From: Caldilineaceae bacterium
GTDB lineage: Bacteria > Chloroflexota > Anaerolineae > Caldilineales > Caldilineaceae
Length of the DNA: 64,000 nt
Reading direction: 5' to 3'
Assembly (NCBI GenBank): GCA_022842065.1
Contig: JALHQH010000040.1
Location: 46,624 to 110,623 of the forward strand
The notes below the pieces were generated by a model. The model was not told where the DNA came from, made no database searches, and worked only from the letters and a program-made list of their open reading frames with translations. The position numbers and the translations under genes are program-made. Numbering within the stretch: position 1 is the first letter of the stretch; the number at the start of each line of letters is the position of its first letter. Shown in pieces: positions 18,571 through 43,275 of this stretch.

Positions 18571-18616
18571 AATATTTTTCTGATCATTCGTACAAACAAT
18601 GGATAAAATTAATTGT

Positions 18617-19234
18617 CTATGCCGTGGGCAGTGCTGTATCTTCAGGCCAATCCAGGCAGCGCAAAATGCCTGGTTCCACTTCTTGATAGCGCCAACCACT
18701 CTCCGGGCAGACCAATTCACCGGCGCCATTACGGTCCACCAAACGATGACCGTGGCGGCTCATCCAGCCGCGTTGCCGGGCCGGCACGCCAAGCATGAGC
18801 GCATAGTCGGGGACATCACCGCGTACCACGGCGCCTGCGCCAATAAAGGCATAACGACCGAGCGTTGCGCCACAAACAATCGTGGCATTCGCCCCAATCG
18901 TTACCCCGCGGCGGACCACTGTGCGCTGATATTGGCTGTGGCGCACAATCTGCGAGCGGGGGTTGATCACATTGGTAAAGACACAGGATGGGCCACAAAA
19001 GACATCATCTTCCAGCTCCACCCCGGTGTAAACCGAAACATTGTTCTGGATCTTGACATTGTTGCCGATCACTACGCCGGACGAAACCAGCACATTCTGC
19101 CCTAAATTGCAGCCCCGCCCCAACCTGGCCCCACTCATCACATGGCAAAAGTGCCAGATCTTGGTGCCGGCGCCAATCTCGCAGCCATCGTCAATATAAG
19201 CACTCTCATGCGCAAAATAAGCTTGCTGACTCAT
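18617..19234 (-). CDS. wbpD: Left-handed beta-helix acetyltransferase, WbpD/WlbB-type
   Basis: This 205-aa hexapeptide-repeat protein shows [20 protein letters not shown], then repeated [LIV]-G-x4 turns up to residue 150 ([20 protein letters not shown] and [11 protein letters not shown]). It matches UDP-2-acetamido-3-amino-glucuronate N-acetyltransferases, which acetylate the 3-amino group with acetyl-CoA. The C-terminal tail with CPESGWRY is common in this family. A 46-bp perfect palindrome lies just upstream, toward the dehydrogenase gene. Confidence 0.93.
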
Positions 19235-19262
19235 TGGTTTCTCTCATTTATACTTGGCGCTG

Positions 19263-19308
19263 TCATCAATTAATATTTTCTACACGTGTAGAAAATATTA
19301 ATTGATGA
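19263..19308. repeat. 46-bp perfect palindrome inside the wbp operon
   Basis: The sequence is AT-rich and perfectly self-complementary with no loop, centred at 19285/19286 on acacgtgt. It sits between the dehydrogenase stop (19330) and the acetyltransferase start (19234). As RNA it would form a strong hairpin in mid-operon. As DNA it is a candidate operator or cruciform. No T-run follows on the minus strand, so a classical terminator is unlikely. Confidence 0.9.
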
Positions 19309-19329
19309 TAACCGCGGGTATATCGTTTC

Positions 19330-20343: not shown

Positions 20344-20957
20344 AGCTGCACTTCCGTCTTTGGCATTGTTTTGCTGTTTTGTACTGGATGGTCGGGCCAA
20401 ATCAAGGTCAATTGAATTCCTTCAACCTGTAAAATGGGTTGATGTGTGGCCACTTTGTGCGGCTGGTTGCGTTGCTCAGTGGCCGGTTGTTGTCGCTGCT
20501 CCTGCACTGTGATCGCTTCTAAATGGAGTTCTAGACAGGTCAACTGGCAGATGTCAACAATCTCGCCTCCGCCCTGGATGACAACTTGTTGATAGCCGGC
20601 ATTTACTACCTCGCGCAGCAGCCGCTGTGCCTCCAGCCGGGTACGGCGGTAAAGCGAGAGGGAAGCTTCCAAGTATTCACCGGCCAACTGGCTCTTGCGC
20701 GCAATGCCTTCGGTGGTGAGCAGATAGCTCCAGTTCCAGCGCCCAATCCGCCGGACCTTGACATAGCCCTTTTTACTCCAGCGTTTGAGATACCAGTTGA
20801 CCGTACCCACAGCCACCCCAACGCGTGCGGCCAAATCCGCTTGCGTCGTTTCGGGGGTGGCCGCGATCGCTTCCAGCAATTGTAATTCATTTTCCACGCT
20901 GGCTGCCCCTTCGGTGGGGGCTTCACGCGTCGTTGTAACAATGCGATCGTCTGCCAT
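20340..20957 (-). CDS. Winged-helix transcriptional regulator (EPS-associated MarR-like)
   Basis: The protein is 205 aa from the ATG at 20957; a TTG four codons upstream is also open. An N-terminal winged helix spans about residues 20-85, with TQADLAARVGVAVGTVNWYL as the helix-turn-helix and GYVKVRRIGRWNWSYLLT as the wing. The following TEGIARKSQLAGEYLEASL and RRTRLEAQRLLREV helices resemble the MarR_EPS family that heads exopolysaccharide operons. The C-terminal part is Gln-rich and not recognised. It is the first gene of the operon, and repeats just upstream are likely its binding sites. Confidence 0.85.
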   Translation of the reverse strand: MADDRIVTTTREAPTEGAASVENELQLLEAIAATPETTQADLAARVGVAVGTVNWYLKRWSKKGYVKVRRIGRWNWSYLLTTEGIARKSQLAGEYLEASLSLYRRTRLEAQRLLREVVNAGYQQVVIQGGGEIVDICQLTCLELHLEAITVQEQRQQPATEQRNQPHKVATHQPILQVEGIQLTLIWPDHPVQNSKTMPKTEVQL

Positions 20958-25739: not shown

Positions 25740-27554
25740 TCAGAGGGTCTTTGCCAAATTAGAAAGTGGACTGAGTTGGTCGGTGACTTCGACCAACTCA
25801 ACTGCCGGTCGGCGGTCAGCCGACGTTGACCTGTGGTTGGCGCTTGGTAAGCGGCGCGCAACTGAAAATTTAGCAATGAAATAGTTTGCAATGACATATT
25901 TCGCAATGACGTAGAGGGTGACGATCCCCATAATCCACAACACACTGGTTAATTCACGGGATAGTTGCCCTGACCCGCGCCACGACAAGGGGCTAAGTGC
26001 CGTGGCGACTTGTTCCGGGGCAAGCGTCGTAAGCAACCCCAACTTAAGTCCTGTGCTGCCAAAGAACCCGGCACTGGCTAAGGCGGGTGCCGTGGTAAAA
26101 TGTGTGGGTAGGGTCAAGGTTGCAAAGCGAATCTGCTTGCCTGCTGCCTGATTGGCCAACCAGATGAGGCCCATATCCCCCTGGCCAATGCCGTTGCGGC
26201 GGCCCAGGCTCGCATAGATATCGTGTCCAGCCGCAAGCAGCGTAATACAATCGCTCCACCCGGCGTCTGTTTTAACGCGATATGCAATGGTGCCCGCTTC
26301 TGGCGCATCATTGGGAAAGGCATAAGGCTCTTCGGTCGCCGACCAGGTGATCCAGACGGCATCATGCTGATCAATGCCGATGCTGGGAAAAGTCTGTGCT
26401 CCCTCGGCGGTGGGGGCTACTTGGATCGGCGGACGCCACCATTCGCCATCAAAGTAAGTATAATGAATGCGCGCTTCCCCCTCTCCAAAGAACTGGTCAG
26501 GTGCCTGGCGCCAGACCACGTGCAAATTGCCCTGGCTATCAGCGTCAACTGAGAGATGGCGTTGATCCTGCCACGAGGGTGCCAACCGGCTCCACGGCTG
26601 CCAACGCCTGCCTGCATCGGTTGAATAGGTATATAGAATTTGCTGACTGGCGCCGGCGCGTCCATAGGCAAATAGATAGAGCGCACCTTGTGGCGTTGCA
26701 ACCAGGGCCGGTCGACTGTGGTTGGCCTGGCCAGGCACGACATTAACCCACGTTGACCAGCTATCGCCGCGATCCACCGATTTAATCAACTTTACCTGGC
26801 TGGTATTTGTGTAATAAGTGTCACGTCCCTCCCATGCCACATAAAGGGTGCCCTCCGTGTTAGGATGACTCGTATCAACATAAATGATGGGATGTTCCTG
26901 CCAGAGCGATTGACCACCGTAGCCACTCACTGGGGCAATGTTACGCCAGGCTGACCAACTGTTGCCGCCATCGCTTGAACGCACGTATTTGATCTGATTC
27001 TCTTCACTGCCATTGTGCTGAGCATCTTTGCCATACCAGACCACATGAATCATCTGCTGATCGTCAATGGCAATCGCCGGCACCCGTTGATTATAGTCGC
27101 CCACTTTTTCGATGGGTTGACCATGGTTGAGCACCTGCCACGTTGTCCCGTTGTCGTGCGATTTTGCGACAAAGATATGATAGGCTGTCAGTTGTTCCTG
27201 TTTGAATTTTTTGCGGTAGGCCACATAGAGATCGCCGGCGCGATCACGCACCACTTTCCGGCCATCGGGGTAGCCCATCGCTTTGACATCTTGGGTCGTG
27301 TCAACCACACTGCTGACAAGATGGGCGGTGGCCATGGTGGTCGCATTGTTGGTTGCGGCGGCGTCAACGGCAGGCGCAACTCCGGCTGCATCGTTTGCCA
27401 TCGGCTGGTGCCCTGGTCGTATCACTGTAGTGAGAGTAGTTGCGAAGCGGCGAACGATTTGTGCTGGTTGGTCAGTGATGAAAGTGAGCACTAGCGCCAA
27501 TCCGCAGAAAATTAACGTAATAATAAGTGCTTTGCCCAACGGCCGGAAAGTCAT
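25740..27554 (-). CDS. Membrane protein with sialidase-type Asp-box beta-propeller
   Basis: This 604-aa protein has an N-terminal hydrophobic segment (ALIITLIFCGLALVLTFIT). A secreted propeller follows with at least four Asp boxes: SHDNGTTW, SSDGGNSW, SVDRGDSW and STDAGRRW. After these come a transmembrane helix (VLWIMGIVTLYVIAKYVIANY) and a short basic tail. Asp boxes are found in sialidases and in many other propellers. I did not find the sialidase Arg triad with certainty, so enzymatic activity is open. It is presumably held on the outer face of the membrane near the polysaccharide synthase system. Confidence 0.78.
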   Translation of the reverse strand: MTFRPLGKALIITLIFCGLALVLTFITDQPAQIVRRFATTLTTVIRPGHQPMANDAAGVAPAVDAAATNNATTMATAHLVSSVVDTTQDVKAMGYPDGRKVVRDRAGDLYVAYRKKFKQEQLTAYHIFVAKSHDNGTTWQVLNHGQPIEKVGDYNQRVPAIAIDDQQMIHVVWYGKDAQHNGSEENQIKYVRSSDGGNSWSAWRNIAPVSGYGGQSLWQEHPIIYVDTSHPNTEGTLYVAWEGRDTYYTNTSQVKLIKSVDRGDSWSTWVNVVPGQANHSRPALVATPQGALYLFAYGRAGASQQILYTYSTDAGRRWQPWSRLAPSWQDQRHLSVDADSQGNLHVVWRQAPDQFFGEGEARIHYTYFDGEWWRPPIQVAPTAEGAQTFPSIGIDQHDAVWITWSATEEPYAFPNDAPEAGTIAYRVKTDAGWSDCITLLAAGHDIYASLGRRNGIGQGDMGLIWLANQAAGKQIRFATLTLPTHFTTAPALASAGFFGSTGLKLGLLTTLAPEQVATALSPLSWRGSGQLSRELTSVLWIMGIVTLYVIAKYVIANYFIAKFSVARRLPSANHRSTSADRRPAVELVEVTDQLSPLSNLAKTL

Positions 27555-27914: not shown

Positions 27915-29390
27915 TTATTCTGCGGAGAGTAAAGGCAGGTAGATCCGGAGCGTGAGCGCTGTAAAGGGTAGTAATGCCGGCGTCGCCCCAATATCGGTGC
28001 CATTTTCACCCATCCCAATCGCTGGGCTGGTGGCCTGTAGACGGAAATCCTCATTACTTAGATTACTAAAGAGCGGTTCTGCGGCCACTGTGCCACTGCA
28101 ATTGCCATTGCGAAAGTCGCCGTTGAGGTGGTAGAAGAGGTTATGTAGACATTGATAGACGTTTGCCGCCTGGGCTTTGTCGGCGAGCGTGGTTGTGTTT
28201 GGTGTATTGTCTTCAATCGTAGTTTGGTAAAAGATGTTGTTCTTGATGACCGTCTGCTCGGGCAAACGGCTCTGTTCGCTGTTGCCCAGTTTGAATTTCC
28301 CGTAAATGAAGGTGTTGTTCAGCAACGTGGTGTTAATGGCGCGCTCTAAGATCAGCACGCTGGCTGCATCTGGACTTTGTAAAAAGATATTGTAGCGGAC
28401 CAACGCGCTGCTGGTGGACGCCGTGTCGCCCGTGCCAAAGCGGATCAGGGTATCTTTGCAGTGGCGGAAAAAGTTATATTCAATCACCTGTTGATCGGCC
28501 ACCTCATCTTCTTCATGAATCACCATGCAGCCCCCTGCGTGATCTTCGCCGGTGCCAGCCAAGTGTAGTTGATCGCCATCAAAGAGATTGTAAGCAATAT
28601 GAAGTGGCTCGGTTGTGCGTTTGATGTCAATACATTGCTCCATATTATAGCCATTGGTGCAGGTATTATGGGTAAACGCGACTCGACCGACATCGCGTAC
28701 TTGTAACATATCTTCGGCTGCTGTTGTGAAATGTGCCTTTGTCAATAGATTTTCGTTGATGACAATCTGGGTCGGCACCGTTGGTACTGCTTCGGCTGTC
28801 ACAAAGATGTTATGGCCATCGCGCCCACCATCAATGTGATTGCCGCTGATTTCTACCTGTTGGACATCCCCGCTGATCCGCACTGCATCCGTAATGCCGC
28901 CTAAAATCAGATTATTGCGCAGGATAATGGTAGTCAATGCGCCTTTGTTTTTGCCGTCAAAGCGGACCGCCCATTGCAGATCGCCAATTCCCTGGGCCTC
29001 GATTTGTAGCCCGGCAATGATGTTGTAGGAATTGGGGCGGATGCTGGTCAGTAGGGTCACTGCTTCACAGTTATACGGTTTAATGGTAATCGGCGCTGCG
29101 GCTGTGCCAGCCCTCAGCCAGAGTTTATCGGTGGCCGCATAGCGGCCACCGTGCAAGAGGAAGGTGTCGCCTGGTTGGGCGCGTTCTTGCAATGTTTGCG
29201 CCCAATCATCTTCTGGCGCAAGGATAATCGCCTGCGCAATTTCGGCTTCGGTCGTACATGGCTCGCGCGCTGGCCCAATGATGGCGGGCGCCCCGTAGAT
29301 GGGGGGTAGCGCCGGTGCATCCCACCATGCGTGCGCGAATAGCGTCAGGATTGATAGCAGACAATGGCTCAGCAAGTAGATTGTCATCAT
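27915..29390 (-). CDS. Secreted right-handed parallel beta-helix protein
   Basis: This 491-aa protein has a signal peptide (MMTIYLLSHCLLSILTLFAHA). AQPGDTFLLHGGRYAATDKL and GTAAAPITIKPYNCEAVTLL are the standard entry to pectate-lyase-like beta-helices. Many N-x-[FL]-type rungs follow up to about residue 440 (IILRNNLILGGITDAVRISG, VEISGNHIDGG, LLNNTFIYG). This fold holds PL6/chondroitinase-B lyases, epimerases and adhesins. I could not identify a catalytic Lys/Arg pair. Its proximity to a polysaccharide synthase-epimerase makes glycan binding or lysis plausible. Confidence 0.8.
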   Translation of the reverse strand: MMTIYLLSHCLLSILTLFAHAWWDAPALPPIYGAPAIIGPAREPCTTEAEIAQAIILAPEDDWAQTLQERAQPGDTFLLHGGRYAATDKLWLRAGTAAAPITIKPYNCEAVTLLTSIRPNSYNIIAGLQIEAQGIGDLQWAVRFDGKNKGALTTIILRNNLILGGITDAVRISGDVQQVEISGNHIDGGRDGHNIFVTAEAVPTVPTQIVINENLLTKAHFTTAAEDMLQVRDVGRVAFTHNTCTNGYNMEQCIDIKRTTEPLHIAYNLFDGDQLHLAGTGEDHAGGCMVIHEEDEVADQQVIEYNFFRHCKDTLIRFGTGDTASTSSALVRYNIFLQSPDAASVLILERAINTTLLNNTFIYGKFKLGNSEQSRLPEQTVIKNNIFYQTTIEDNTPNTTTLADKAQAANVYQCLHNLFYHLNGDFRNGNCSGTVAAEPLFSNLSNEDFRLQATSPAIGMGENGTDIGATPALLPFTALTLRIYLPLLSAE

Positions 29391-30375: not shown

Positions 30376-33300
30376 ATGCCCTCAAATCAGTTACTGAGCG
30401 AATTTAGAGACTTTTTCGATGTTTTGCTGCAGCTTTTATCACAGTTACAAAACCTTGGTAATCTTGTTCTCTTGCTGATTCCGGTTGGTATTATCGGCTT
30501 TTGGCGCTGGGGGCTTTGGTTGGTCCGCAAGTTGATTGGCTTGCGTTATCATCCGCTACAACCGAGCGGCTATACCACGTCGACGAGTATTGTGACGCCG
30601 GTTTACAACGAAGATCCGCAGACTTTTCGCAATGCGCTGGAGTCATGGCTTGCTAATGGTCCTAATGAAATTATCGCGGTTATTGATTATACCGACGAGA
30701 TTTGTATTCAAGAGTTTCGTAAGTTTGAGGAAGCTTGCGCAGCCACCGGCGCAGTAACCACCCGCTTGATTGTTACCCGCAAATCGGGCAAACGCGCGGC
30801 GTTGGTTGATGGCATGCAAGTGGCCAATGGTGAAATTATCTTCTTGGTCGATAGTGATACACTATGGGAAAAAGATGTCCTGGTGCGTGCGATCGCGCCG
30901 TTCGAAGATCCGGAAGTGGGTGGTGTGACCACGCGCCAAAATGTCTTGGCCCCACAAACAATTTCCCAACGGCTTTTTGATCTCTATCTTGACATTCGCT
31001 ATCTCGAAGAGATCCGCTTTCTAGCGGCAGCCGGCGATGCCCTAACTTGTATCTCTGGGCGTACGGGGGTCTACCGGCGTACGGCGGTTTTACCGCTGCT
31101 TGACGAACTAGCTAACGAGACCTTCTGGGGCCAGAAGGTGATTGCCGGTGACGATAAGCGGCTTACTCATTTGGTCCAGGCGCAAGGCTGGAAAGTGCGC
31201 TACCAGGAAAACGCCCGCGTCTACACCCCGGGTTTTCCGGAATTAGGGCCCTTTATTCGGCAGCGTGTCCGCTGGGCGCGTAACAGTTGGCGCGCCGATT
31301 TGCGCTCAATCTTTAGCAGTTGGCTCTGGAAACGCCCGGTGTTGGCTTTCTATTCGATTGATCGCCTTTTTCAGCCGCTGACATCCCTCGTCGCTCCTAC
31401 CTATTTAGTCCTTTCGATTATCTACCAGGATTGGTTCACCACGATCGTTATTCTCGTTTGGTGGTTGGTCTCGCGGACCATCAAGATCTGGATGCACTTG
31501 CGGCGCCGGCGTTCCAGCATCATTATTTTACCTTTCTACATTTTCTTCATTTACATGAATGCGTTGATTCGCATCTATGCGTTTTTCACCATGAATCATC
31601 AGAGTTGGGTCACGCGTTGGGATCAGACGCGCATGCGCCACCTGGGTTTTGTGCGCTCCTTCCTCAGTTATGCCGCGACCGGCGTCATGGTGATCTTTGT
31701 GGTGCTCGTGATTAATCTGCTCTACAACCAGCGTCTGTTGCTGGCCAATATTACTGATCCGAATCTCGTCACCACCGAACGCGACCTGCCGGCGTATGAT
31801 TATGAAGTTGCCCGTCAACAAAATCAAGTGGCGTTGCCGAGTTTGGACGGAGTTGGGGCCAGCCGGGTGGCCGAATCTGTTACTCGTTATGAAATCGGGG
31901 TCGGTGATACGATTACGCTGATTGCCCAGAAATATGGTGTAGCCGAGAGCGCGATCATCTTAGAATCGGCGGCCTGGAAGATTGGCGAGCAGATTCAGAT
32001 TCAATTGCCCTTCCGCCCCTATGCTGAATACCGCGCCAGCTTGCCGCCGCTGACTAGTGCCGATAACACCACCAACATTCTCTATCGGCCCGAGATCAAT
32101 GCGATTACTGTCTCCGGTAATCTGACGGTGGTCGACATTCCCACGATCCATAAAATTATCAACGATGAAAATGTGCTTGCGCATGAAGGTGATGGCGTTT
32201 ATCTGCTCAAGGTCAATCTGGAACTGAAGCGCCACACGGTTCTGCTGATCGAAGGGCCGGATGTCGCCTGGCTAAAATTGCGCAGCGATGGTGATGGGTT
32301 TGTGCGCATCTTTGGTGACTCGGCCAACATTGGCGTCCACAACACAAAAATTACCTCGTGGAACCCGGCATTGAGCGATGTGGATCAAGATGTCAATGAT
32401 GGGCGTGCCCACATTCGCGTCAATAATGGGCGGATGGATATTGTCAATACAGAGGTCGCCTATCTAGGACAGCCCAAACTGCGCAATAGCGGCGGTGGGG
32501 TCTATGGCCTTTCGTGGCGTGTGGAAAATAGTAGCCGTTTTGGCCACGAATTAACCACCGGCACCTTTGTGGGCAATGATATTCACGACAACTATATGGG
32601 CTTCTATTCCTATGGCGCAACGGGCATGATCTTAAGCGACAATCGGATCTACAATAATCTTGAATATGGCCTTGACCCCCATGATGATTCGAATAATTTT
32701 ATTGTGGAGAATAACGAAGTTTATGGCAACGGCAACCACGGGATCATCTTCTCGCGCCGTTGTGTCAACAACATTATTCGCAACAACCGTTCCTACGACA
32801 ACAAATTGCATGGCATTATGCTCGACCGCGAGAGTAACAACAACTCGATCTACAACAACTATGTCGAAGGCAATGTCGATGGCATTGCCCTCTGGCGCTC
32901 TGATCTCAATGCCATCTATAACAATGAAGTAGTCAACAACAAACGCGGGATGCGCTTCAATCGCCGTTCTGCCGATAATGTGGTCTACGGCAATCAGGTC
33001 ACTGATTCGACCCAATATGGCGTTTATGTCTATGAGGAGTCGCGGGCGAACTGGTTCTACAACAACGAACTAGAAAACAACAGTACCGGCTTTTATCTCC
33101 GCGCCCTCAGTAACTATCTGTTTGAAAATACCATTGCTGGCGGTGACCGGGGCATCTATATGACTGCCGAAGCCATCGGCAACCAGATTGCCAAAAATCA
33201 GCTGGTGAGTAATGAGACGGCGTTTTACCTCAAAACCGCACCAGATGATTTTATCTCTGACAATATCTTCCAAAATAATCAGGTAAATATTCGCTTTACC

Positions 33301-33399
33301 GATGAATGGTTCCCGCTGGAAGATGGCAACGGGCTAGGCGCTTCGTATTTCGACCGGCTGGCCGGCTACTTTGCCTTTGGTCGGCTACGTACGCCCTGA
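30376..33399 (+). CDS. Processive GT2 synthase fused to LysM and AlgG-like C5-epimerase beta-helix
   Basis: This is a 1007-aa protein. TM1 lies near residues 25-50. A GT2 domain follows with D104/D107, DSD at 159-161, GDD at 258-260 and QRVRW at 296-300, the D,D,D,QxxRW set of processive synthases (hyaluronan synthase, NodC and Alg8 types). Four or five helices follow to about residue 460, then a LysM (about 505-548) and a right-handed beta-helix (about 560-970). The helix has MGFYSYG, GLDPHDDS with DPHD at 767-770, NHGIIFSRR and HGIMLDRES, as in mannuronan C5-epimerase AlgG. It probably polymerises a uronan or similar glycan and epimerises it on exit. The substrate is not proven. Confidence 0.87.
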   Translation: MPSNQLLSEFRDFFDVLLQLLSQLQNLGNLVLLLIPVGIIGFWRWGLWLVRKLIGLRYHPLQPSGYTTSTSIVTPVYNEDPQTFRNALESWLANGPNEIIAVIDYTDEICIQEFRKFEEACAATGAVTTRLIVTRKSGKRAALVDGMQVANGEIIFLVDSDTLWEKDVLVRAIAPFEDPEVGGVTTRQNVLAPQTISQRLFDLYLDIRYLEEIRFLAAAGDALTCISGRTGVYRRTAVLPLLDELANETFWGQKVIAGDDKRLTHLVQAQGWKVRYQENARVYTPGFPELGPFIRQRVRWARNSWRADLRSIFSSWLWKRPVLAFYSIDRLFQPLTSLVAPTYLVLSIIYQDWFTTIVILVWWLVSRTIKIWMHLRRRRSSIIILPFYIFFIYMNALIRIYAFFTMNHQSWVTRWDQTRMRHLGFVRSFLSYAATGVMVIFVVLVINLLYNQRLLLANITDPNLVTTERDLPAYDYEVARQQNQVALPSLDGVGASRVAESVTRYEIGVGDTITLIAQKYGVAESAIILESAAWKIGEQIQIQLPFRPYAEYRASLPPLTSADNTTNILYRPEINAITVSGNLTVVDIPTIHKIINDENVLAHEGDGVYLLKVNLELKRHTVLLIEGPDVAWLKLRSDGDGFVRIFGDSANIGVHNTKITSWNPALSDVDQDVNDGRAHIRVNNGRMDIVNTEVAYLGQPKLRNSGGGVYGLSWRVENSSRFGHELTTGTFVGNDIHDNYMGFYSYGATGMILSDNRIYNNLEYGLDPHDDSNNFIVENNEVYGNGNHGIIFSRRCVNNIIRNNRSYDNKLHGIMLDRESNNNSIYNNYVEGNVDGIALWRSDLNAIYNNEVVNNKRGMRFNRRSADNVVYGNQVTDSTQYGVYVYEESRANWFYNNELENNSTGFYLRALSNYLFENTIAGGDRGIYMTAEAIGNQIAKNQLVSNETAFYLKTAPDDFISDNIFQNNQVNIRFTDEWFPLEDGNGLGASYFDRLAGYFAFGRLRTP

Positions 33400-33494: not shown

Positions 33495-33597
33495 GCCAAG
33501 TGGTGTCCACGCTATTTGTGGGATCTATTAAGGTAAATACGGAACGCGCCGAACGACTATTTTACCGATGTACCGTGCTACCGTTCTGGAGAATGTT

Positions 33598-36500
33598 ATG
33601 CAGAAATTGCTGAAATCAATGATCGTCGTGGCACGCCTCTGCTTGGTCGTAGCCTTCTTGCTGCCCAATGCCGTGATTGCCGCGCCTACACCCCCTGTAA
33701 TTGTTAAAACCCAAGGCGATGTGATTCTGAATGAAGGGCTTGTCCTCTATGATGCCGGTAAATGGCAAGAGGCCTTGACCAAATTCGAAGCTGCACAACA
33801 GAGCTATGCTGCCATCCGCTGGCTCCAGCGCGAGAGCAGTGCTCTTCAATACATTGGCCACACCAAGCGGGAACTAGGTGATCTGCCTGGTGCCGTGGCC
33901 GCCTATACCCATGCCATGAATCTGGCCGTTGCGATTCGTGACTGGCAACTGCAGACCAAACTCAATGTCTTCTTGGCCCGCGCGTATCAAGATCTGGGGC
34001 AATTAGATGCGGCGTTGGCTGCCCAACAAGCCGCCCTGGAACTAGCCCAAAGTATCAATGATCAGGAATGGATCGGCAAAGCCCTACTCGCTGGTGGTCG
34101 TATCGCCCTGGCCCAAGGCCAAAGTGATGCGGCGCTCGAAACCTACCAGACGGTGCTTGACCTTGCCCGTACATTGGGCGATCAGACCCTGGTCGGCCAG
34201 GCGCTTGGCGGGATCGGTGCCGTCTACGAAACTCTCAACCAATATGAATTGGCGGCGAACCCCTACCAGCAGGCCCTGGCCATTGCCCAGGCGTTTAATG
34301 ATCCGGCGTTGGAGAGTGAAGCGCTTGATAACATTGCCACTATCTACCAGAAGTTAGGCCAGCCACAGCAGGGTCTATTTGTCTATCAGAATGCTCTGCG
34401 TGCCGCCTATAGCGCCGGCAACACCGCGTTGGCAGCCAAGACCCTGCTGAGCATCGGTGACGCTTATGAAGATCTTAACAAAGAGACCGATGCCTTAGAT
34501 GCCTATCAGCAGGCGCTTGAATTGAGCCGGACAATTGCTGATCAGCGGACTGAGTTGAATGCGCTGGCCGCAGTTGGCCGGGCCTATCGGGATCTCGGCC
34601 AATATACCGACGCCGCGACCTACCTGGAAGAGGCTTTTACCCTTGCTGGTCTTTACCAAGATGCGGATCTGCAGGGCGCACTACGCGCTGATCTGGCCAG
34701 CAACCAACGCCAAAGTGGTGACGCACGAGCTGCGGTAGAATTCTACCAAGGCGCGCTGACCCAAGCCCAACTGAGCGGTGATAGTGCCTTAGAAGCAAAA
34801 GTGTTAGCCGGAATGGGTAGCACCTATCGTATGTTGCGCCAATTTGCCGAAGCACGGACCAGCTATGAAGCCGCGTTGGTACTGTTGCAGACTCTCGGTA
34901 ATCAGCAGATGCAAAAGAGCACCCTGGCCGATCTGGCCAAGACCTATGCCAATCTGGGTGAAACTGAATTGGCTTTACAAACCTATGAGCAGGCCTTGAC
35001 CCTGAGTAAAACATTGGCCGATGGGGAACTTCAATCCACGCTGCTCACCGAAATGGGCGAGCTACAAGTCGCTGCCGGCCAGATTCCTCAAGCGCTGGCA
35101 ATCTATCAACAGGCTATGGCCCTGCTGGAAGAGCAGGGCGATGCTGCTGGCCTGGCTCAGTTGCAAGGTCAAGTTGCCACTCTCTATCGTACACTTGGGC
35201 AGACGGATAACGCTTTTTCGGCGTATCAAGCCGCCTTGGTCAGCGCCGAGGTGCGCGGCGACCGCCCACTCCAGAGTGAATTGTTGGGCAATCTCGCTGA
35301 ACTTTACTGGGATCTTGGCCAGTGTACCGAAGCTGGTGATACCTATACGCGGGCATTTGAACTGGCGCGTTTGGCCGGCAACAGCCGCCAGATGGTGCTC
35401 TACTTGCTGGCGCGAGGGCGCATCAACGATGCCGAAGGGGAATTTAACGACGCCCTGGCTGCCTATGATGATGCCTTGCAACTGGTCCGCCGGCTCAACG
35501 ATGCTGCCCTGGAAGCCCAAGTCCTGACCAATCAGGGCGATGCCCTGCGCAGTGCCGGGCGCTTTGAGCCGGCAATGACTGCCTATGAACAGGCTTTACG
35601 CATTGCCGAACGACTCTACCTGCTCAGCTTGCAAAGCGAGATTCTCTCCGGCATTGGTGGGGTCCAGCGCGAATCTGGCCAATATGAACTTTCGCTGGAA
35701 CCTTACCGGCGGGCCTTGGCCCTGGCGCAGCGGGTCGGTGATGTCCGCTTGCAAGGGGAGATTCTCCTGGGATTGGGCCGTTCTTACCGTGACCTTGGTC
35801 AATATGCCACTGCCCTGGAACGCTACGACCAGGTTGAAACTTTAGGCCAACAACTGCCCGATTTGGAGCTGGAGAGCCTGGCCAACAGTGGCATGGGCGA
35901 AGTCATGCGTATTGAAACTGCATTTGGCGAGGCCCGTGATAAATATCAACGGGCCTTAGATCTGGCCGAACGCCATCTGCGCACTTTGGCCTCACAAAGC
36001 TCTACCTGTCGAACGTTGGATGATTTTCAACTGCGCGGCCGCATTTTGGCCGACACCGCGCGCGTCTATCGTGATGAACTGCTTTATGAACGTTCCATCG
36101 ACTACTACAATAAAGCGATTGATGCCACCAAAGAAATTCCCGATGCTGAACTAGCCGGCCGCATCTTTGTGGATCTGGGCAAAGTCTATCGTGATTTGCG
36201 TAACTTTACCCAGTCCGTTGCCTCCTATCAAGAAGCGGTTGAACTGGCCAAGGCCGTTGAAAATCTGGAAGTCTTAGGTAATACCTACCTGGATCTTGGA
36301 CATGTCCATCGCGAACTTGGCGAAAGTGCCAAAGCCTTAGATTTTTACCGGCAGGCCTTTGCGGTGGCGCAGGAACGCAAAGATCGCGAGTTGGCGGGGG
36401 CGGCGCAATTAGCTATTGGTAGTGCCTATAGCGCAATGGCCCAATATCAACAGGCTATTGATACTTATAAAGAAGCGTTGGTCACCGCTGATGCGGCCGG

Positions 36501-39500
36501 CCAGCCCATTCTGACGTTGCGTGCCTACAGCGGTCTCGGTGATGTCTATCGGGCCAGCGGCGACAACGAGCAGGCGTTGACCGCCTTTACCACTGCGCGC
36601 GATCTGGCGCGTGCGCAGAATCTGGCCGACAATGAAGCCGAGCTGACTGCGCAGATCGCCAAAGTTTACCGCGATCTTGGCCGTTATGACGAGGCCCTGG
36701 TCTTGGCGAATGAGTTGAGCAACCTGACCCTCAAGATCGATATTCTGGCCGATATTGCCAAACTTTATCGCGGTGCCGGCGAATATGAAAAGGCCCTAGC
36801 CCTTTTTGAAGAGGCGCTTGGTGGGGCTAAAACCCTCAATGATCCTGCCCTGCAGGGGGCCACGTTGACGGAGATCGGCAAAGTCTACCGCGCATTGGCA
36901 CAGTTGGACCAGGCGTTGAACTCCTATACGGCCGCGTTGACCTTTGAAAAAGCTGCCAACAATGAGCGGATGCAGGCGACCATCCTAGTCGAGATCAGCA
37001 AGATTTATCGCCAACAGGAGCAATTTAGCCAAGCGCTGATTCGTTTGGAAGAAGCGCGTGGCTTTGCCCGCCAATTGAGCGATCCTAGCCTGGATAGTGA
37101 AATTCTGGTCGAAACGGCGGCCATTTATCGCGATCAGGACGACGCTGGGCGTGCCCTCTCGCTCTATCAAGAAGCATTAACGCGCGTGCAACAGTTGGGT
37201 GACGCTGATCGGACGCGCATGGTGCTTGCCGAGATTGCTGGTCTCTACCTGGAGACCGGCCAACCCGAACAAGCACTGCGCACCTACCAAGAAGTGTTGG
37301 CACTGGCGCGTACCTCTGGTGATCGGGCCTTGGAAGGGAAAACGCTGGTCGCCATTGGGCAGGCCTATCGTAATGTCGGCGAAGACGAACGTGCCCTGAT
37401 CTTCTATGAAGATGCGCTGACGGTCGCCCAGCTCGCTGGTGATCTTGCCCTGCGCAGCGAGGCGCTGGAAGGTGCCGCCAACCTGTACGAAATGTTGGGC
37501 CAAAGTGACCGCGCGCTGCGGGCCTATGACGAGGCGCGTTTAGTTGCGCAACAGTCACAAGATGGGCCGGCCGAGGGTGAAGCCCTCCTTGGTAAGGGCC
37601 GCATTTATCTAACCCTGAATCAATGTACAGATGCATTACAAGCCTATCAAGCTGCCCTGGCGCTGGCCCAAGCGGGCAACCTTAGTCTGCTCCAAGGGGA
37701 AGCACAGGCCGCGATTGGTCGTTACTACCGCGACACTGGGGCGGCGCAGGCCGCACTGGAGGCGGCACAGCAGACCTTGCTCCTTGCCCAAAGTAACAAC
37801 GACAGCCTCTTGCAACGCTGGGCGTTGACCGAGATCGGTCGGGCACAGCGCGATCTGGGGCAACACGCCGCTGCGTTGGAAAATTATGAGCAGGCTTTAC
37901 AACTGACCGGTACGGATGTCGCCACCCGGAGTCTGCTGCTGACGGATATTGGTAAAGTGCTGCGTGCGGCCGGACAAACGGATGCCGCCCTGGCCCGCCT
38001 CCAAGAGGCTGACGGCTTGGTCAACGCCATCGCGCCTTCGGCTGCGCGTGTCGACGTCCTGGTCGAGTTAGCCCGGGCCTATGTCGATTTAGCTCAGTTC
38101 AGTATGGCGCAACAACAATACGACGCTGCGCTGGTATTAGTACGGGCGCAGGCAACGGATGGGCGGATTGCCCCGCAAGAAGGTGAGATCTTAATCGGGA
38201 TTGGTCAACTGCAGGCCCGACAAACCCAAATCGAGCCGGCCCGCCAATCGTTTGAGGCGGCACTGACCTTGGCCTTAGCTAAGCCGGATCAGATCCTCCA
38301 AGGGCGGGCGCTTGATGAACTAGGTAAACTCTACCGTGATAGCCAACAATATGGCCCCGCCTTGATCCATTTCCAGCGGGCCTTGCCGGTTGTCCAGCAG
38401 CTGTCCCGCACGGGTGTGCGTTGCGCCCAGGCCATCGAGCCGGGTTGGGAAATCAACATTCACAAAAATATCGGTAAGGTTTACCAGGCTTTGGGGCAAT
38501 TGGATCAAAGCTTGGTGGCCTACGAACAGGCGCGCACACTGGCGACGCAACTGGAAAATGTCGAACTTGGCCGTACGCTAGCCCAAGAATTAGCGGCGGC
38601 GGTTGGCAATATCTATCGCCTACAGGGTAAATACGACGCCGCGTTAGCACTGGCCCAAGAACTGGGTGACTTTGCCCTGGAAGATAAGATCCTAAGCGAA
38701 ATGGGCCGCGTCATGCGCGACGCGGGGCAACTCGATCAGGCATTGGAACCCTATGAACAGGCCCTGGCCCGTGCGCGTGAGGTGCAGGATCGGGCCGCAG
38801 AAGGTCGTGCCCTGGCCAATCTGGGGCGCGTCTTCCGCGCACTGGAGCAATATGAAGCAGCTGAGGAAAATTACAGCGCGGCGCTAGTCATTGTGCAGGA
38901 GTTTGGTGACCAAGAATTGGCCAGCCGTGTCCTGACCGATTTGGGTAAAGTTTACCGCACATTGGGGAAAAACGAGGATGCCCTGAAGCTCTTTACTCAG
39001 GTGCTTCCCCTGGCCCAAGCCCGGAGCGACAAGGTGACCGAGCGTGCGACGTTAGAGAGTATGGGCAGCATCTACCTGGCGCAACAGCAATATGAGATGG
39101 CGCTTGAGACCTATCAGGCGGCCCAGGTGCTGGCAGAGGCGGCCCAGGACCTGGAAGGGAAGGCCAAGATTCTCTCGAGCATTGGGCGGATCTACACGGC
39201 GCTTGGTCGCGATGAAGAGGCCATGACGACGCTGCAGCAGATCGGTACCTTGGAAATCAGCGATAGCGTGCTTGTCGATCTGGGCCGGCTCTACCGCGAT
39301 CTAGGTCAATACGAGCAGGCGTTGACGCCTTATAACCAGGCCTTAAGCGCCGCGCGTGCCCAGGGCAATCAAGCCGCCGAGGTGCAAACGTTGATCGACA
39401 TGGGCAAGGTCTATCGGGCCATGACCCAGGCCGAGCAAGCCGAGACTTCCTTCAAGGACGCGTTCGCCATTGCCGAAACCCTGGGGGACAGCGCGTTGCA

Positions 39501-42500
39501 AAGTACCGCGCTGGATGGACTAGCCAAAGTCTATCAAGAATCAGGTCGCTATGCCGAGGCACTGGCTTCTTACAACACGGTGCTGGAACTGGCCAAGGGG
39601 GCTAACCTTTTGCGGCTGGAGACCCAGGCGACCATCCAGATCGGTAAAGTCTACCGTGACCAGGGCGACCATGCCAAAGCGCTCAAATCCTATGCCCAGG
39701 CGCTAACCATGGCCCAGTCGCTCAATGATATGGCCTTGCTCAGCACGGTGACGATGGAGCTAGGAGCGGCCTACCTGGCCACTGGGGCGAATCAAGAGGC
39801 CTTAGCCGCCTATAAACGTGCCCGCACCATGGCGCAAGAGCAGGGTGATCCGGCGCTGTTGGGCAGTGCGCTTAGTGGCCTTGGTACGGCGGCCCATGCG
39901 CTTGGTCAGTATGAGGATGCGCTAGAGCCTTTCCAAGCATTGCTGACGCTGGCCCAGGAACAAGATAATCAATCCATGCAGAGTGATGCCTTGGTGAAGA
40001 TTGGGCGGGTCTATCGCGACTTGGGCCGCACGGCGGATGCCCTGCAATTCTATGGGCAGGCACGCGATCTGGCGGAGACATTGGCTGATCAAGCCTTGCA
40101 GGCGCAAGCGCTGGAGAACATTGCCCGCTTGCAACGTGATGGTGGTGATGTGGCCGGGGCACAGCAAACCTATGAAGCTGCATTGGCATTGGCGCGGGCC
40201 AGTGGCAATCTCCAACTAGAAGCGGGCGCACTGGAAAATATTGGTCGCTTCTATCGCGATACCAACCAGACAGAACAGGCATTAAGCTTTTATCAAGAGT
40301 TGTTAATCAGTGCGCGTACCCTGGATGATCGCCGCGCCGAAGCGAATGCGCTCGACAACCTGGCCCGCTTGCAACGTGATGGCGGCGACCTGGCGACTGC
40401 ACTGGAAAGTTACACCACGGTCTTGACGCTGGCAGCAGCATTAGACGATGCCGCGCTGGTTCAGGCAACCCAAATCAACCTGGCCAAGACCAATGCGCGC
40501 CTGGGTAATTACAATGAAGCAACGGCCGGCTACGAAGCGCTCTTGGCGCTGGCACGCGCTGCTGATGATCAACTGCTCGAAACGACCGTTACTATGGAAT
40601 TGGGCCACTTATATCGGACACGGGCAAGCTATGACGAGGTGTTCCGACTCTATGGGGAAGCGTTGGCCATCCTGCAGGCTGCCGGTGATGAGAGCGCCGC
40701 TGCCACTGTAAATGTGGCGATTGGCGATGCCTATCGCGAACTGGGGCAATATGATCAGGCGTTGGTCAGCTATACCCCGGCCCTGATGACCTATCAGGCA
40801 CAAAATAATCTGCCGGCCCTTGTGGCGATGCTCAATGATATTGGTGCAACCTATTACAGTATGGGCGCGTATGAACAAGCTGTCGCCCGTTTTGATGAAG
40901 CGCGCACACTGCTGCGCGCGGATGCCGACCCGGCGTTGCTGGTGGAAACCGCCACGAATTTGGGTAAAGTGCAGCGCTCACTAGGTAACTATGATCTTGC
41001 TATCACTGAATACCAGCAAGCGTTAGAACAGGTGCGTCTGGGCAGCGATCAAGAAGGTGAAATCAAAGGGCTGCTCAATCTAGGCGTAGTTTATCTGGAT
41101 CTTGGCCAGGTGGAAGAAGCAAAGGCCAACTACGAAGCCGCGTTGGCCGCGGCCCAAGCCGCCAATCACGAGCCATTACAGGCGCGCACCCTATATAGCT
41201 TGGGTAAAGTCTATCGCGATACCGCCCAATATGAGCTGGCCCTGGCGGTTTTAGAAGAGGCGCTTGCCTTGCAGCAAAAGTTGGGTGATCAGGTCGGAGA
41301 AGCGGCCACCCTCAATGATCTCGGGACAATCTACATTAATCTGTTCCAGCCTGAACGTGCCATTGAGCCGCTAGAACGCGCCCGGACAACCAGCCAAAGT
41401 ATTCGAGATCAAGCCCTGGAAGCTGAAGTGCTGACTGGCTTAGCCCTCGCCTATGAAAATCAGGGCGACAACGAGTTGGCAATTGAAACCTATAAGGCCG
41501 CCATTGCGACTGCCGGCAATCGCCCAGTTGATCTGGAAACCTACCAACGGCTGATCAAGCTACTCTGGGATGTGGAGCGACTCGGTGAAGCCTTCACCTA
41601 TATGGAGAAGGCGCTGGCGCAAACTTTCCTTGATAAAAATGGTAATCCGTGGATCGACCTCAAGTCTACGTCGGCACCGGAATTGGCAGAGAAAGAACAA
41701 GCCCTACGGCAGACGGTTGTGGGGCTGCAACAGGCGCTCGCAACCGAATTGGAAAAAGCGCTGGCACAACGCAACCAGGGGTTGATCGATGAACTGTTGG
41801 CACGGCTAGATAGCATACAGGCCGAATATGCTGATGTTATGGCGCGGCTACGCACGCAGGATCCGGCTTATAGTGCCTTTTACGGCATTAATACCATCAA
41901 CCTCGACGATCTGCGCAGCAAGGTGTTGGATGATCAAACAACCCTCATCGAATACTTTGTCCTGCGCAAGCAGGCAGTGGCATGGGTGGTTGATAAAGAG
42001 CGTGCTGTCCTGGTGCCATTGGATATTACAAACACTGAGTTACTCAATCAGATCGGTGACTTCTATGAGAAGTTAGGGGTCGGCGAAGCGGAGATTACCG
42101 AGGCCTCAAGCCTTTTCGCACGGCTCTTTACCCCAGTACGCGCCTTCGTGCGCCACCAAAACTTGGTTATTGTCCCGCATGGTGTCCTGCAATATGCACC
42201 CTTTGCTGCTTTCTATGATGCCCAGAACGGCAGCTATCTGGTCGAAAACTACGCTGTAACCTATGCCCCGAGTGCGACCCTTTATGGGCACATCTTGCAG
42301 CAGCGTAACAACAATGAGGGGGCAGTGCTAGTCATGGGCAGCGGTGATGAACTGTTGCCCTTTGCCCACCAGTCTGCACGCGCTGTCGGCGAAAGTCTGG
42401 GCAGTACACCACTTTTAGGCCAAACGGCAACGGAAAGTGAACTCTATACACAGGCCCCGCAGATCGATATTCTACATTTGGGCACGGCCGGTTTTTATCA

Positions 42501-43275
42501 ACCGCAAGAGCCACTCTTCAGCCATATCACCTTGTCGCCAGATGATGAAAATGATGGCCGCCTGGAAACGCACGAGATCTTTAGTAAACTGGATTTGCAT
42601 AAGGCCAATTTGGTTGTCCTTGCCGGCAACCAACAACCAGAGGGGACAACCAAATTTGCCGATGGGGCAGAAGTCAAAGAATTGGCTTGGGCCTTTGCCT
42701 ATGCTGGTGCACCAGCCGTTTTGAGCACCAACTGGCGCGTCGATGATGCCAGTGTGGCCACCTTCTTTGCGACTTTCTATCGCCACTTGACGGAAAAGAC
42801 GACCACCGCCGAGGCGTTGCGCCTGGCACAGTTAGAGCTGTTGGCCAATGAAGAGACCGCCGCCCCTTATAATTGGGCTGCTTTCAGCCTGAGTGGCGAC
42901 GCGCTGGGTGAGGGTGCAATCCAACCTCGCGCACTCATCACGGGAAGTGTGGCGGCCACCGAGGTCACAGCCAGCCAAGGCGCAACGGATACCGCCGCGT
43001 TGACGGCTTCGGTTGACACGTTAACGCAGTCGGGCGATATGACCAATGTCTTCCAGGTCCGCGATGGCTCGGAAATTGCGGGGGTCGGTGCTAGTGCGTC
43101 GGTGACAGAAACTGTCCCGATCACAACTACCCCCGGCGCGTTCCAGATTCCTGTCGGTGACTTGACTGATGGCCTCTGTAACAATGTGACGCTGCCATTG
43201 GGCCTGGTCCTACTAGCCGACCTGTTCCGGCGCAAATTGCGCAAGAAGCGTGCAGATGGCGATGAAGAAGCTTAA
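33598..43275 (+). CDS. Giant exported TPR-array protein with C-terminal inactive-looking CHAT domain
   Basis: The protein is 3225 aa from the ATG at 33598, which follows a ctggag ribosome site; an ATG ten codons upstream is open. A signal peptide covers about residues 1-30. TPRs fill about residues 40-2660, roughly 65 units by length, each with a Y-R-x-L-G-x-Y-x-x-A-L-x-x-Y core. A helical linker (about 2690-2760) leads to a CHAT peptidase fold (about 2780-3110) with VPHGVLQYAPFAAFYD. The catalytic His site reads LHLGTAG (A2964) and the Cys site LVVLAGN (N3011), so both residues are lost. A Thr/Ala-rich stretch and a hydrophobic, basic tail end it. It is probably a surface scaffold, perhaps for the polysaccharide machinery. 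Confidence 0.9.
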   Translation: MQKLLKSMIVVARLCLVVAFLLPNAVIAAPTPPVIVKTQGDVILNEGLVLYDAGKWQEALTKFEAAQQSYAAIRWLQRESSALQYIGHTKRELGDLPGAVAAYTHAMNLAVAIRDWQLQTKLNVFLARAYQDLGQLDAALAAQQAALELAQSINDQEWIGKALLAGGRIALAQGQSDAALETYQTVLDLARTLGDQTLVGQALGGIGAVYETLNQYELAANPYQQALAIAQAFNDPALESEALDNIATIYQKLGQPQQGLFVYQNALRAAYSAGNTALAAKTLLSIGDAYEDLNKETDALDAYQQALELSRTIADQRTELNALAAVGRAYRDLGQYTDAATYLEEAFTLAGLYQDADLQGALRADLASNQRQSGDARAAVEFYQGALTQAQLSGDSALEAKVLAGMGSTYRMLRQFAEARTSYEAALVLLQTLGNQQMQKSTLADLAKTYANLGETELALQTYEQALTLSKTLADGELQSTLLTEMGELQVAAGQIPQALAIYQQAMALLEEQGDAAGLAQLQGQVATLYRTLGQTDNAFSAYQAALVSAEVRGDRPLQSELLGNLAELYWDLGQCTEAGDTYTRAFELARLAGNSRQMVLYLLARGRINDAEGEFNDALAAYDDALQLVRRLNDAALEAQVLTNQGDALRSAGRFEPAMTAYEQALRIAERLYLLSLQSEILSGIGGVQRESGQYELSLEPYRRALALAQRVGDVRLQGEILLGLGRSYRDLGQYATALERYDQVETLGQQLPDLELESLANSGMGEVMRIETAFGEARDKYQRALDLAERHLRTLASQSSTCRTLDDFQLRGRILADTARVYRDELLYERSIDYYNKAIDATKEIPDAELAGRIFVDLGKVYRDLRNFTQSVASYQEAVELAKAVENLEVLGNTYLDLGHVHRELGESAKALDFYRQAFAVAQERKDRELAGAAQLAIGSAYSAMAQYQQAIDTYKEALVTADAAGQPILTLRAYSGLGDVYRASGDNEQALTAFTTARDLARAQNLADNEAELTAQIAKVYRDLGRYDEALVLANELSNLTLKIDILADIAKLYRGAGEYEKALALFEEALGGAKTLNDPALQGATLTEIGKVYRALAQLDQALNSYTAALTFEKAANNERMQATILVEISKIYRQQEQFSQALIRLEEARGFARQLSDPSLDSEILVETAAIYRDQDDAGRALSLYQEALTRVQQLGDADRTRMVLAEIAGLYLETGQPEQALRTYQEVLALARTSGDRALEGKTLVAIGQAYRNVGEDERALIFYEDALTVAQLAGDLALRSEALEGAANLYEMLGQSDRALRAYDEARLVAQQSQDGPAEGEALLGKGRIYLTLNQCTDALQAYQAALALAQAGNLSLLQGEAQAAIGRYYRDTGAAQAALEAAQQTLLLAQSNNDSLLQRWALTEIGRAQRDLGQHAAALENYEQALQLTGTDVATRSLLLTDIGKVLRAAGQTDAALARLQEADGLVNAIAPSAARVDVLVELARAYVDLAQFSMAQQQYDAALVLVRAQATDGRIAPQEGEILIGIGQLQARQTQIEPARQSFEAALTLALAKPDQILQGRALDELGKLYRDSQQYGPALIHFQRALPVVQQLSRTGVRCAQAIEPGWEINIHKNIGKVYQALGQLDQSLVAYEQARTLATQLENVELGRTLAQELAAAVGNIYRLQGKYDAALALAQELGDFALEDKILSEMGRVMRDAGQLDQALEPYEQALARAREVQDRAAEGRALANLGRVFRALEQYEAAEENYSAALVIVQEFGDQELASRVLTDLGKVYRTLGKNEDALKLFTQVLPLAQARSDKVTERATLESMGSIYLAQQQYEMALETYQAAQVLAEAAQDLEGKAKILSSIGRIYTALGRDEEAMTTLQQIGTLEISDSVLVDLGRLYRDLGQYEQALTPYNQALSAARAQGNQAAEVQTLIDMGKVYRAMTQAEQAETSFKDAFAIAETLGDSALQSTALDGLAKVYQESGRYAEALASYNTVLELAKGANLLRLETQATIQIGKVYRDQGDHAKALKSYAQALTMAQSLNDMALLSTVTMELGAAYLATGANQEALAAYKRARTMAQEQGDPALLGSALSGLGTAAHALGQYEDALEPFQALLTLAQEQDNQSMQSDALVKIGRVYRDLGRTADALQFYGQARDLAETLADQALQAQALENIARLQRDGGDVAGAQQTYEAALALARASGNLQLEAGALENIGRFYRDTNQTEQALSFYQELLISARTLDDRRAEANALDNLARLQRDGGDLATALESYTTVLTLAAALDDAALVQATQINLAKTNARLGNYNEATAGYEALLALARAADDQLLETTVTMELGHLYRTRASYDEVFRLYGEALAILQAAGDESAAATVNVAIGDAYRELGQYDQALVSYTPALMTYQAQNNLPALVAMLNDIGATYYSMGAYEQAVARFDEARTLLRADADPALLVETATNLGKVQRSLGNYDLAITEYQQALEQVRLGSDQEGEIKGLLNLGVVYLDLGQVEEAKANYEAALAAAQAANHEPLQARTLYSLGKVYRDTAQYELALAVLEEALALQQKLGDQVGEAATLNDLGTIYINLFQPERAIEPLERARTTSQSIRDQALEAEVLTGLALAYENQGDNELAIETYKAAIATAGNRPVDLETYQRLIKLLWDVERLGEAFTYMEKALAQTFLDKNGNPWIDLKSTSAPELAEKEQALRQTVVGLQQALATELEKALAQRNQGLIDELLARLDSIQAEYADVMARLRTQDPAYSAFYGINTINLDDLRSKVLDDQTTLIEYFVLRKQAVAWVVDKERAVLVPLDITNTELLNQIGDFYEKLGVGEAEITEASSLFARLFTPVRAFVRHQNLVIVPHGVLQYAPFAAFYDAQNGSYLVENYAVTYAPSATLYGHILQQRNNNEGAVLVMGSGDELLPFAHQSARAVGESLGSTPLLGQTATESELYTQAPQIDILHLGTAGFYQPQEPLFSHITLSPDDENDGRLETHEIFSKLDLHKANLVVLAGNQQPEGTTKFADGAEVKELAWAFAYAGAPAVLSTNWRVDDASVATFFATFYRHLTEKTTTAEALRLAQLELLANEETAAPYNWAAFSLSGDALGEGAIQPRALITGSVAATEVTASQGATDTAALTASVDTLTQSGDMTNVFQVRDGSEIAGVGASASVTETVPITTTPGAFQIPVGDLTDGLCNNVTLPLGLVLLADLFRRKLRKKRADGDEEA

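Follow-up and report, generated by a model that had tools for sequence, protein, structure and literature searches.

Can a single protein both polymerize a uronic acid and epimerize the chain that it makes? The question is raised by a gene at positions 30376..33399 (+) of a 64,000-nucleotide stretch of contig JALHQH010000040.1 from a Caldilineaceae bacterium of the Chloroflexota; this whole stretch is called the window here, and positions are those of the window unless a related locus is named. The open reading frame (ORF) starts with an ATG at 30376, its stop codon ends at 33399, and the frame and its translation are uninterrupted. By matches to Pfam, NCBIfam, and solved structures, the encoded protein of 1007 amino acids (aa) combines a glycosyltransferase family 2 (GT2) synthase, transmembrane (TM) segments, a LysM-like stretch, and an AlgG-like C5-epimerase, and it is confirmed as a synthase-epimerase fusion that is intact in one chain. 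The explanation that we favor, and consider probable, is a compact alginate pathway in which mannuronan synthase and mannuronan C5-epimerase share one chain.

All parts of the protein are encoded on the forward strand. The first hydrophobic segment (residues 24-42; 30445..30501) overlaps an IGxWR[WY] motif common with Alg8 and precedes the GT2 catalytic domain (residues 70-303; 30583..31284; PF13641, E value of 7.1e-26). QRVRW (31261..31275) corresponds to Q296xxR299W300 and is invariant among the aligned relatives. Four later hydrophobic segments (residues 331-349, 354-372, 382-400, and 428-446; 31366..31713), with QSWVTR between the last two, bring the total to five. They are followed by the LysM-like stretch (residues 505-528; 31888..31959) and by an AlgG-like right-handed beta-helix (residues 598-886; 32167..33033), which is matched by NF038177 at residues 598-884 and by PDB 4nk6 at residues 599-886. 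The beta-helix contains YGLDPHD at residues 764-770 (32665..32685), which aligns with YGIDPHD of AlgG and would supply the Tyr, the Asp, and the proton-abstracting His, and S793-R794-R795 (32752..32760), in which R794 aligns with the arginine of the AlgG SRE. A preliminary description of this gene, made from the sequence, had reported a complete D,D,D,QxxRW GT2 domain, transmembrane helices, a LysM, and a beta-helix with DPHD at residues 767-770 and rungs reading NHGIIFSRR and HGIMLDRES. The GT2 domain, the hydrophobic segments, and the three motifs are all present as described, and the LysM holds for the family, whose profile matches the LysM chain 4b8v at an E value of 4.1e-8, but is weak in the window copy (PF01476, E value of 0.053, below the cut-off).

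A search of 5.8 billion proteins yielded 412 relatives among 7996 candidates scored, of which 120 were listed and 66 of these were chosen for alignment. Full-length relatives of about 900 to 1000 aa occur on many contigs at 40 to 91% identity. Among the matches listed, five at 74 to 79% identity are named Caldilineaceae, in line with the Chloroflexota host that had been guessed from the sequence, and other names include Chloroflexota, Ardenticatenaceae, Daviesbacteria, and Levybacteria. A separate search of one genome per species gave 327 candidate stretches with a relative, from which 78 distinct loci were kept; their hosts are Patescibacteria of many groups, Chloroflexota, and Actinomycetota, including Streptomyces and Pseudonocardia. 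In these loci, 48 of the 70 GT2 ORFs also carry an epimerase match in the same ORF. Together with the full-length relatives, this refutes the view that the ORF was fused by a frameshift, an assembly error, or another artefact of chance or annotation, for which no supporting observation was found. An epimerase match lies somewhere in 68 of the 78 loci, many GT2s that are not fused having a separate epimerase nearby, and in Streptomyces two genes of the same locus encode the synthase and the epimerase. The occurrence of the halves both fused and side by side suggests that they act on one polymer. Around one Chloroflexota carrier (L001), the fusion was found among the matches listed in 1 of 396 genomes of the class, its own, the others giving weaker GT2 matches, and around another genome (G404) it was found in 2 of 147 genomes at an E value of <=1e-60. 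The fusion is widespread yet patchy and is not unique to the window organism.

The epimerase half is tied to AlgG by several comparisons. The NCBIfam AlgG model NF038177 is the best of the 15 listed families (E value of 1.4e-36, 126.2 bits), above the NCBIfam NosD model at 58.9 bits, and among solved structures the C-terminal half comes closest to AlgG of Pseudomonas syringae (4nk6; E value of 3.9e-28). The AlgG model and AlgG structures cover about 290 residues of the beta-helix, and three other beta-helix proteins used as controls, one from the window and two from related loci, gave no match to the AlgG model at an E value of <=0.01. A profile built from the 66 relatives and compared with solved structures matched AlgG at 7e-47, AlgE4 (2pyg) at 1.9e-11, and NosD at 2.3e-8, as well as hyaluronan synthase at 2.3e-26. 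In the 4nk6 alignment, YGLDPHD of the window falls on YGIDPHD of AlgG, and R794 falls on an arginine 26 residues after the AlgG His; counted from the alignment, these are chain residues 274 (His) and 300 (Arg). In full-length AlgG we take the two sites to be His319 and Arg345. Published work names His274 and Asp275 of 4NK6 as catalytic (PMC11468063, from 2024) and assigns roles in AlgG to the His of DPHD, to a Tyr, and to an Arg (PMC4444821). The window motif fits the published epimerase motif YG(F/I)DPH(D/E) (PMC8824271) except for Leu at the third place. Of the 66 relatives, 61 keep the Tyr, 62 Asp767, 61 the His, and 61 Asp770, and H769 would be the counterpart of the AlgG catalytic His. 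The proposal that one chain holds a synthase and an AlgG-type epimerase is thus borne out at the level of homology, with the catalytic Tyr, Asp, His, and Asp aligned and conserved.

The synthase half is related to more than one kind of GT2. D104, D159, D161, G258, D260, K261, Q296, R299, and W300 are invariant in all 66 relatives, and position 259 varies between Asp (62) and Glu (4). The best solved relatives of the N-terminal half are hyaluronan synthases (HAS; E value of 1.2e-18), and the NCBIfam NodC model matches residues 63-414 (E value of 2.6e-31). A profile of 28 Alg8 proteins scored 18 of 22 fusion or split GT2s at 40 to 78 bits, the other 4 being unlisted, and two NodC proteins at 18 to 19 bits; HAS-like, PgaC, and BcsA rows were absent. 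Aligned with hhalign, the Alg8 and fusion GT2 profiles matched at 99.7% over 376 columns. In a GT2 tree, the fusion and split proteins form a clade (95/96) beside Alg8 (90/74), with the HAS-like proteins and NodC outside. IGxWR[WY], [ST]GR, and GDDK are common to the fusion and Alg8 and not to NodC, as is, by eye, a single hydrophobic helix after the W..TR motif. The Alg8 motifs GKR, [ST]GR, GDDK, and QxW..TR are all present in the fusion, the TR lying one residue further along. We place the GT2 half in a synthase lineage that lies between HAS/NodC and Alg8, short of proof that it is an Alg8.

The substrate is suggested by a gene that accompanies most of the related synthases. A homolog of nucleotide-sugar dehydrogenases was found by tblastn in 72 of the 78 loci, mostly in a short form, with the enzyme of L074 being a full-length one; of the six loci without it, five are on contigs of 3.0 to 13.4 kb and one on a contig of 19 kb. 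The dehydrogenase gene is adjacent, on the same strand, and within 250 bp for 47 of the 66 synthase ORFs that have >1 kb upstream. Among 36 short dehydrogenases aligned for a profile, 35 are 284 to 340 aa long as called and one is 402 aa long. The profile scored 231 bits against the GDP-mannose dehydrogenase 1mfz and at most 208 bits against UDP-glucose dehydrogenases. A tree of 53 sequences joins the short dehydrogenases in one clade (100/100) that groups with rhizobial AlgD and the L074 enzyme (99/94), apart from the full-length enzymes of the carrier genomes and from Ugd and WecC of Escherichia coli, although the inner branch is short. GDP-mannose dehydrogenases of brown algae are 315 to 320 aa long, oxidize GDP-mannose, and yield GDP-mannuronic acid in vitro, and they are described as differing from bacterial enzymes in a Val within GxGxVG and a Pro two positions before GGxCLPKD (PMC4782291). 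These two hallmark residues could be placed by motif, and two further ones could not. In the short bacterial dehydrogenases, the first site is Val in 27 of 36 (Phe in 6 and Ile in 3) and the second is Pro in 34 of 36 (Ala in 1 and one not parsed). The comparison enzymes have Tyr, not Val, at the first site in 14 of 14 readable cases and Pro at the second in 1 of 16. On these comparisons, the short partner dehydrogenase is nearest to the GDP-mannose dehydrogenase AlgD and has two hallmark residues in common with the short enzymes of brown algae.

The linkage appears to extend to other Caldilineaceae. With the L001 dehydrogenase piece as a query, copies were recovered from Caldilineaceae, where a fusion (P0018) and a short dehydrogenase (P0272) are each on a contig of 14,277,107 bases, and in BroJett011 a fusion (P0045, BroJett011_46870) and a short dehydrogenase (P0269, BroJett011_46880) have neighboring locus tags. 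In a Woesebacteria locus (L023), the short dehydrogenase is directly behind the fusion. The L001 copy (1446-2135, + strand of that locus), which precedes a Chloroflexota fusion 62% identical to that of the window, has one in-frame stop, reflecting either an assembly error or decay.

Homologs of alginate lyases are a second companion. Homologs of polysaccharide lyase family 7 (PL7) were found by tblastn in 14 of the 78 loci and those of family 14 (PL14) in 11, with either present in 24. Three of the former were checked with PF08787 (E values of 1.4e-43, 3.3e-40, and 2.1e-37) and three of the latter with PF21294 (2.3e-58, 3.9e-59, and 5.5e-60), and a solved alginate lyase, 5gmt, was matched by PL14 at an E value of 2.9e-26. 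PL7 is present in 20 of 45 carrier genomes, which are the genomes behind 46 of the 78 loci, and in 4 of the 147 class-sample genomes; two of those four carry the fusion, leaving 2 of 145 without it (Fisher's exact test, P = 1e-12, with the caution that the sample represents a single class and the carriers several). In 13 of the 20 genomes, a PL7 copy lies within the fetched locus, versus about 0.4 copies by chance. Six of the eight Streptomyces loci group a dehydrogenase, a GT2, an AlgG-like protein with YGLDPHD, and a PL14 lyase. The locus context argues for GDP-mannose as the likely source of the polymer rather than UDP-glucuronic acid or UDP-N-acetylglucosamine. GDP-mannose pyrophosphorylase (TIGR01479) was also considered as a marker. 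It was found in 34 of the 45 carrier genomes, 11 of them above the cut-off, and in 117 of the 147 class genomes at an E value of <=1e-40; being common across the class, it has no discriminating value, and it was dropped for this reason and for its lack of a match in the actinobacterial genomes named below.

Several observations weigh against an alginate synthase-epimerase, and those on the epimerase half are taken first. The Pfam NosD match to the fusion (152 bits, best stretch at residues 731-878) outscores that of the AlgG model. Pfam NosD also matches three rhizobial AlgG-bearing proteins, at 40 to 52 bits, so that such a match alone is not evidence against AlgG, but its strength in the fusion is unusual. 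The AlgG score is far under the equivalog cut-off of NF038177 (700 bits), which two rhizobial AlgG proteins, at 257.6 and 284.9 bits, also miss. At position 794, the arginine that neutralizes the carboxylate in AlgG is replaced by Lys in 44 of the 66 relatives, with Arg kept in 21 and His found in 1. A pattern search shows the catalytic motif in 43 of the 48 fused epimerase ORFs of the loci and in 17 of the 27 separate ones, some of the ORFs without it being cut off or a single one of several copies. It reads YGLDPHD in 6 of 6 Streptomyces stretches and YG(I/V)DPHT, not DPHD, in 4 of 4 from Pseudonocardia (L065, L070, L077, and L078), and two of the eight Streptomyces loci have no epimerase match. 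In 5 of the 66 relatives the motif, with its catalytic His, is gone, which speaks for the alternative that the synthase half makes the polymer and the beta-helix is a guide for it or a lyase rather than an active epimerase. Related enzymes can be lyases, such as AlgE7 (PMC8824271), and the title of a 2003 paper states that the AlgG protein, but not its activity, is required for polymer formation. We nevertheless regard this alternative as quite improbable, since the Tyr, the His, and Asp770 are kept in 61 of the 66 relatives, the window copy included.

On the synthase and its substrate, a profile of the fusion GT2s gives 201 bits for a HAS-like protein and 157 and 150 bits for NodC, more than the 75 to 112 bits for Alg8, and the GT2 tree has long branches. 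The short dehydrogenases lack the C-terminal domain of full-length enzymes; in two that were scanned, the NAD-binding and central domains (PF03721 and PF00984) are present and the C-terminal one is absent. No homolog of the dehydrogenase, PL7, or PL14 was found by tblastn within the window, and TIGR01479 had no match in the four actinobacterial genomes tested, two from Streptomyces and two from Pseudonocardia. The GT2 scores, the hyaluronan synthases as best solved relatives, and the missing pyrophosphorylase would suit a synthase of another uronan, glucuronan- or hyaluronan-like and made from UDP-sugars, with a beta-helix that turns glucuronic acid into iduronic acid; Joint Genome Institute (JGI) annotations likewise label several relatives "hyaluronan synthase" and many of the dehydrogenases "UDPglucose 6-dehydrogenase". 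The dehydrogenase profile, tree, and brown-algal hallmarks and the lyase homologs in the loci point the other way, and the described enzymes with a DPHD motif act on mannuronan (PMC4444821 and PMC8824271), making another uronan unlikely, if less so than an inactive beta-helix. The preliminary description had suggested an undescribed uronan-type polymer system; the fusion stands, whereas the polymer is probably alginate, given the GDP-mannose-dehydrogenase-like gene and the PL7 and PL14 homologs, and the architecture is widespread, not singular. The case that would have spoken against it, a beta-helix aligning only with generic NosD/pectate-lyase repeats, did not arise, since the AlgG model and AlgG structures match as well, although the generic Pfam NosD model is also a strong match.

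The fusion, its motifs, the homology, and the conserved linkage of genes are observed; the substrate, chain direction, topology, and product that follow are inferred. The GT2 domain, in the cytoplasm, would add GDP-mannuronic acid units to the growing chain and may pass it through a membrane channel of its own. Past the last TM helix, the protein would continue outside the cell as the LysM-like stretch and the AlgG-type beta-helix, and the latter would convert part of the mannuronate in the emerging chain to guluronate, which would make the product alginate. In the relatives, the short brown-algal-type GDP-mannose dehydrogenase of the locus would supply the precursor, and the PL7 or PL14 lyase encoded in a third of the loci may serve to shorten the polymer or to recycle it. 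The topology depends on segment 382-400, which may be an interface helix, as in solved relatives. If it is one, the GT2 domain would face the cytoplasm, with the N terminus and the LysM-epimerase part both outside; counting all five segments as TM would instead place the LysM-epimerase part inside. Positive charge is found at residues 372-384 and 406-431, with none such at 1-27.

How does such a protein compare with known systems? In bacteria, alginate has been described from Pseudomonas and Azotobacter, where a multiprotein complex makes it (PMC4444821), and a survey of 1733 genomes reported 64 alginate operons, largely from Pseudomonas (PMC7112194). With Alg8 and AlgG of these genera and of rhizobia, the fusion shares a GT2 with IGxWR[WY], GKR, GDDK, and QxW..TR and an AlgG-type beta-helix with YGxDPHD; it differs in having synthase and epimerase in one chain and, in its relatives, a short dehydrogenase. 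Among the open-licence papers listed by the literature searches, none describes this synthase-epimerase fusion, judged by title and the start of the abstract. The rhizobial clusters resemble most of the fusion relatives in having a GDP-mannose-dehydrogenase-like gene beside the synthase. They differ in an Alg44-like PilZ or HlyD gene, whereas a Pfam scan found no PilZ domain in the fusion protein (the flanks were not searched specifically for PilZ), and in a different protein of 1246 to 1255 aa with AlgG in its C-terminal part. These rhizobial proteins (L120, 8871-12620, - strand; L119, 10193-13933, + strand; and L121, 8246-12013, - strand) are another AlgG fusion, two that were tested matching NF038177 at E values of 2.2e-76 and 1.1e-84. 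Hyaluronan synthase and NodC have the GT2 fold with D,D,D,QxxRW, and NodC has W-x-S-R near the W-x-T-R of the fusion, but the NodC and HAS-like rows compared lack a beta-helix epimerase, and NodC reads GEDRH where the fusion reads GDDK. AlgE4 and other AlgE epimerases have the same catalytic motif, in line with the profile match to 2pyg, but are secreted and Ca-dependent (PMC4444821) and have no fused synthase.

The brown-algal pathway is similar in its dehydrogenase of about 315 to 320 aa, with the hallmarks GxGVVG and P-x-GGxCLPKD, and in its DPHD epimerases, and differs in that these are separate and numerous; the likeness was judged from published descriptions rather than algal sequences. 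According to a review, an actinobacterium was the source of the GDP-mannose dehydrogenase, the mannuronan synthase, and the epimerase of brown algae (PMC8307928); for the dehydrogenase, this origin is questioned in a later paper (PMC11468063). An actinobacterial alginate gene set had thus been suspected earlier. The later paper also gives 40% identity between the brown-algal dehydrogenase and a Woesebacteriota protein, describes the algal mannuronan synthase gene as unidentified, and states that the algal GT2s are not homologous to Alg8. The boldest reading left by the evidence, offered tentatively and with chances somewhat short of even, is that brown-algal alginate synthesis has its bacterial archetype in operons of this type. 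A lineage of this kind would have given brown algae their short GDP-mannose dehydrogenase and possibly their epimerase as well. The algal mannuronan synthase would have to be sought in the family to which the GT2 half of the fusion belongs, and in Patescibacteria and Chloroflexota the pathway would be pared down to two core genes, one for the precursor dehydrogenase and one for a self-epimerizing synthase.

If the fusion makes alginate, alginate synthesis would extend to Chloroflexota and small-genome Patescibacteria, far beyond Pseudomonas and Azotobacter, a simple enzyme for alginate with a set epimer pattern would be at hand, and the question of the brown-algal mannuronan synthase would become directly testable. 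Since named Streptomyces strains have the split version (e.g., S. niger NRRL B-3857), the polymer can be sought at once. Activated sludge commonly contains Caldilineaceae, and the origin of its alginate-like gel polymers is a matter of debate.

Among the relatives, five full-length proteins (P0051, P0052, P0055, P0056, and P0057) have an epimerase half without the catalytic motif and are natural synthases in which that half is probably dead. In L003 and in L008, a single short dehydrogenase gene lies between two tandem fusion genes. In several Patescibacteria (L003, L008, L011, L012, L023, L048, and others), the fusion is preceded by a member of a family that has 15 ORFs in 13 of the 78 loci and, in the one member scanned, a fibronectin-III domain.

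Upstream of the fusion gene in the window, a BNR-propeller protein (25740..27554, -) has relatives in 11 of the 78 synthase loci, with 36 to 41% identity in the best eight matches, indicating that the window retains part of the neighborhood. A beta-helix protein (27915..29390, -) has a weak likeness to chondroitinase B of the PL6 type (PF14592, E value of 1.4e-4, below the cut-off), and its link to the synthase system is uncertain. Neither had an informative solved relative in the solved-structure search. The 986 bp before the fusion gene contain no convincing dehydrogenase remnant (best E value of 0.003 over 34 aa). A polysaccharide cluster at 3065-20400 (-) encodes several glycosyltransferases, a weakly MATE-like protein, WecB, a PseC-like aminotransferase, an acetyltransferase, and a Gfo/Idh dehydrogenase, a set that points to amino-sugar uronates. 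It was set aside as a source of substrate because no 6-dehydrogenase homolog was found in the window and, by eye, no such genes are among the neighbor families found in at least 3 of the 78 loci. Directly downstream of the fusion gene, 33568-43275 (+) encodes a protein of 3235 aa with 36 TPR_12 stretches and a C-terminal CHAT domain (PF12770, E value of 1.2e-51). By eye, what is presumably its cysteine region reads LAGN in place of the usual motif, and the CHAT domain may be inactive.

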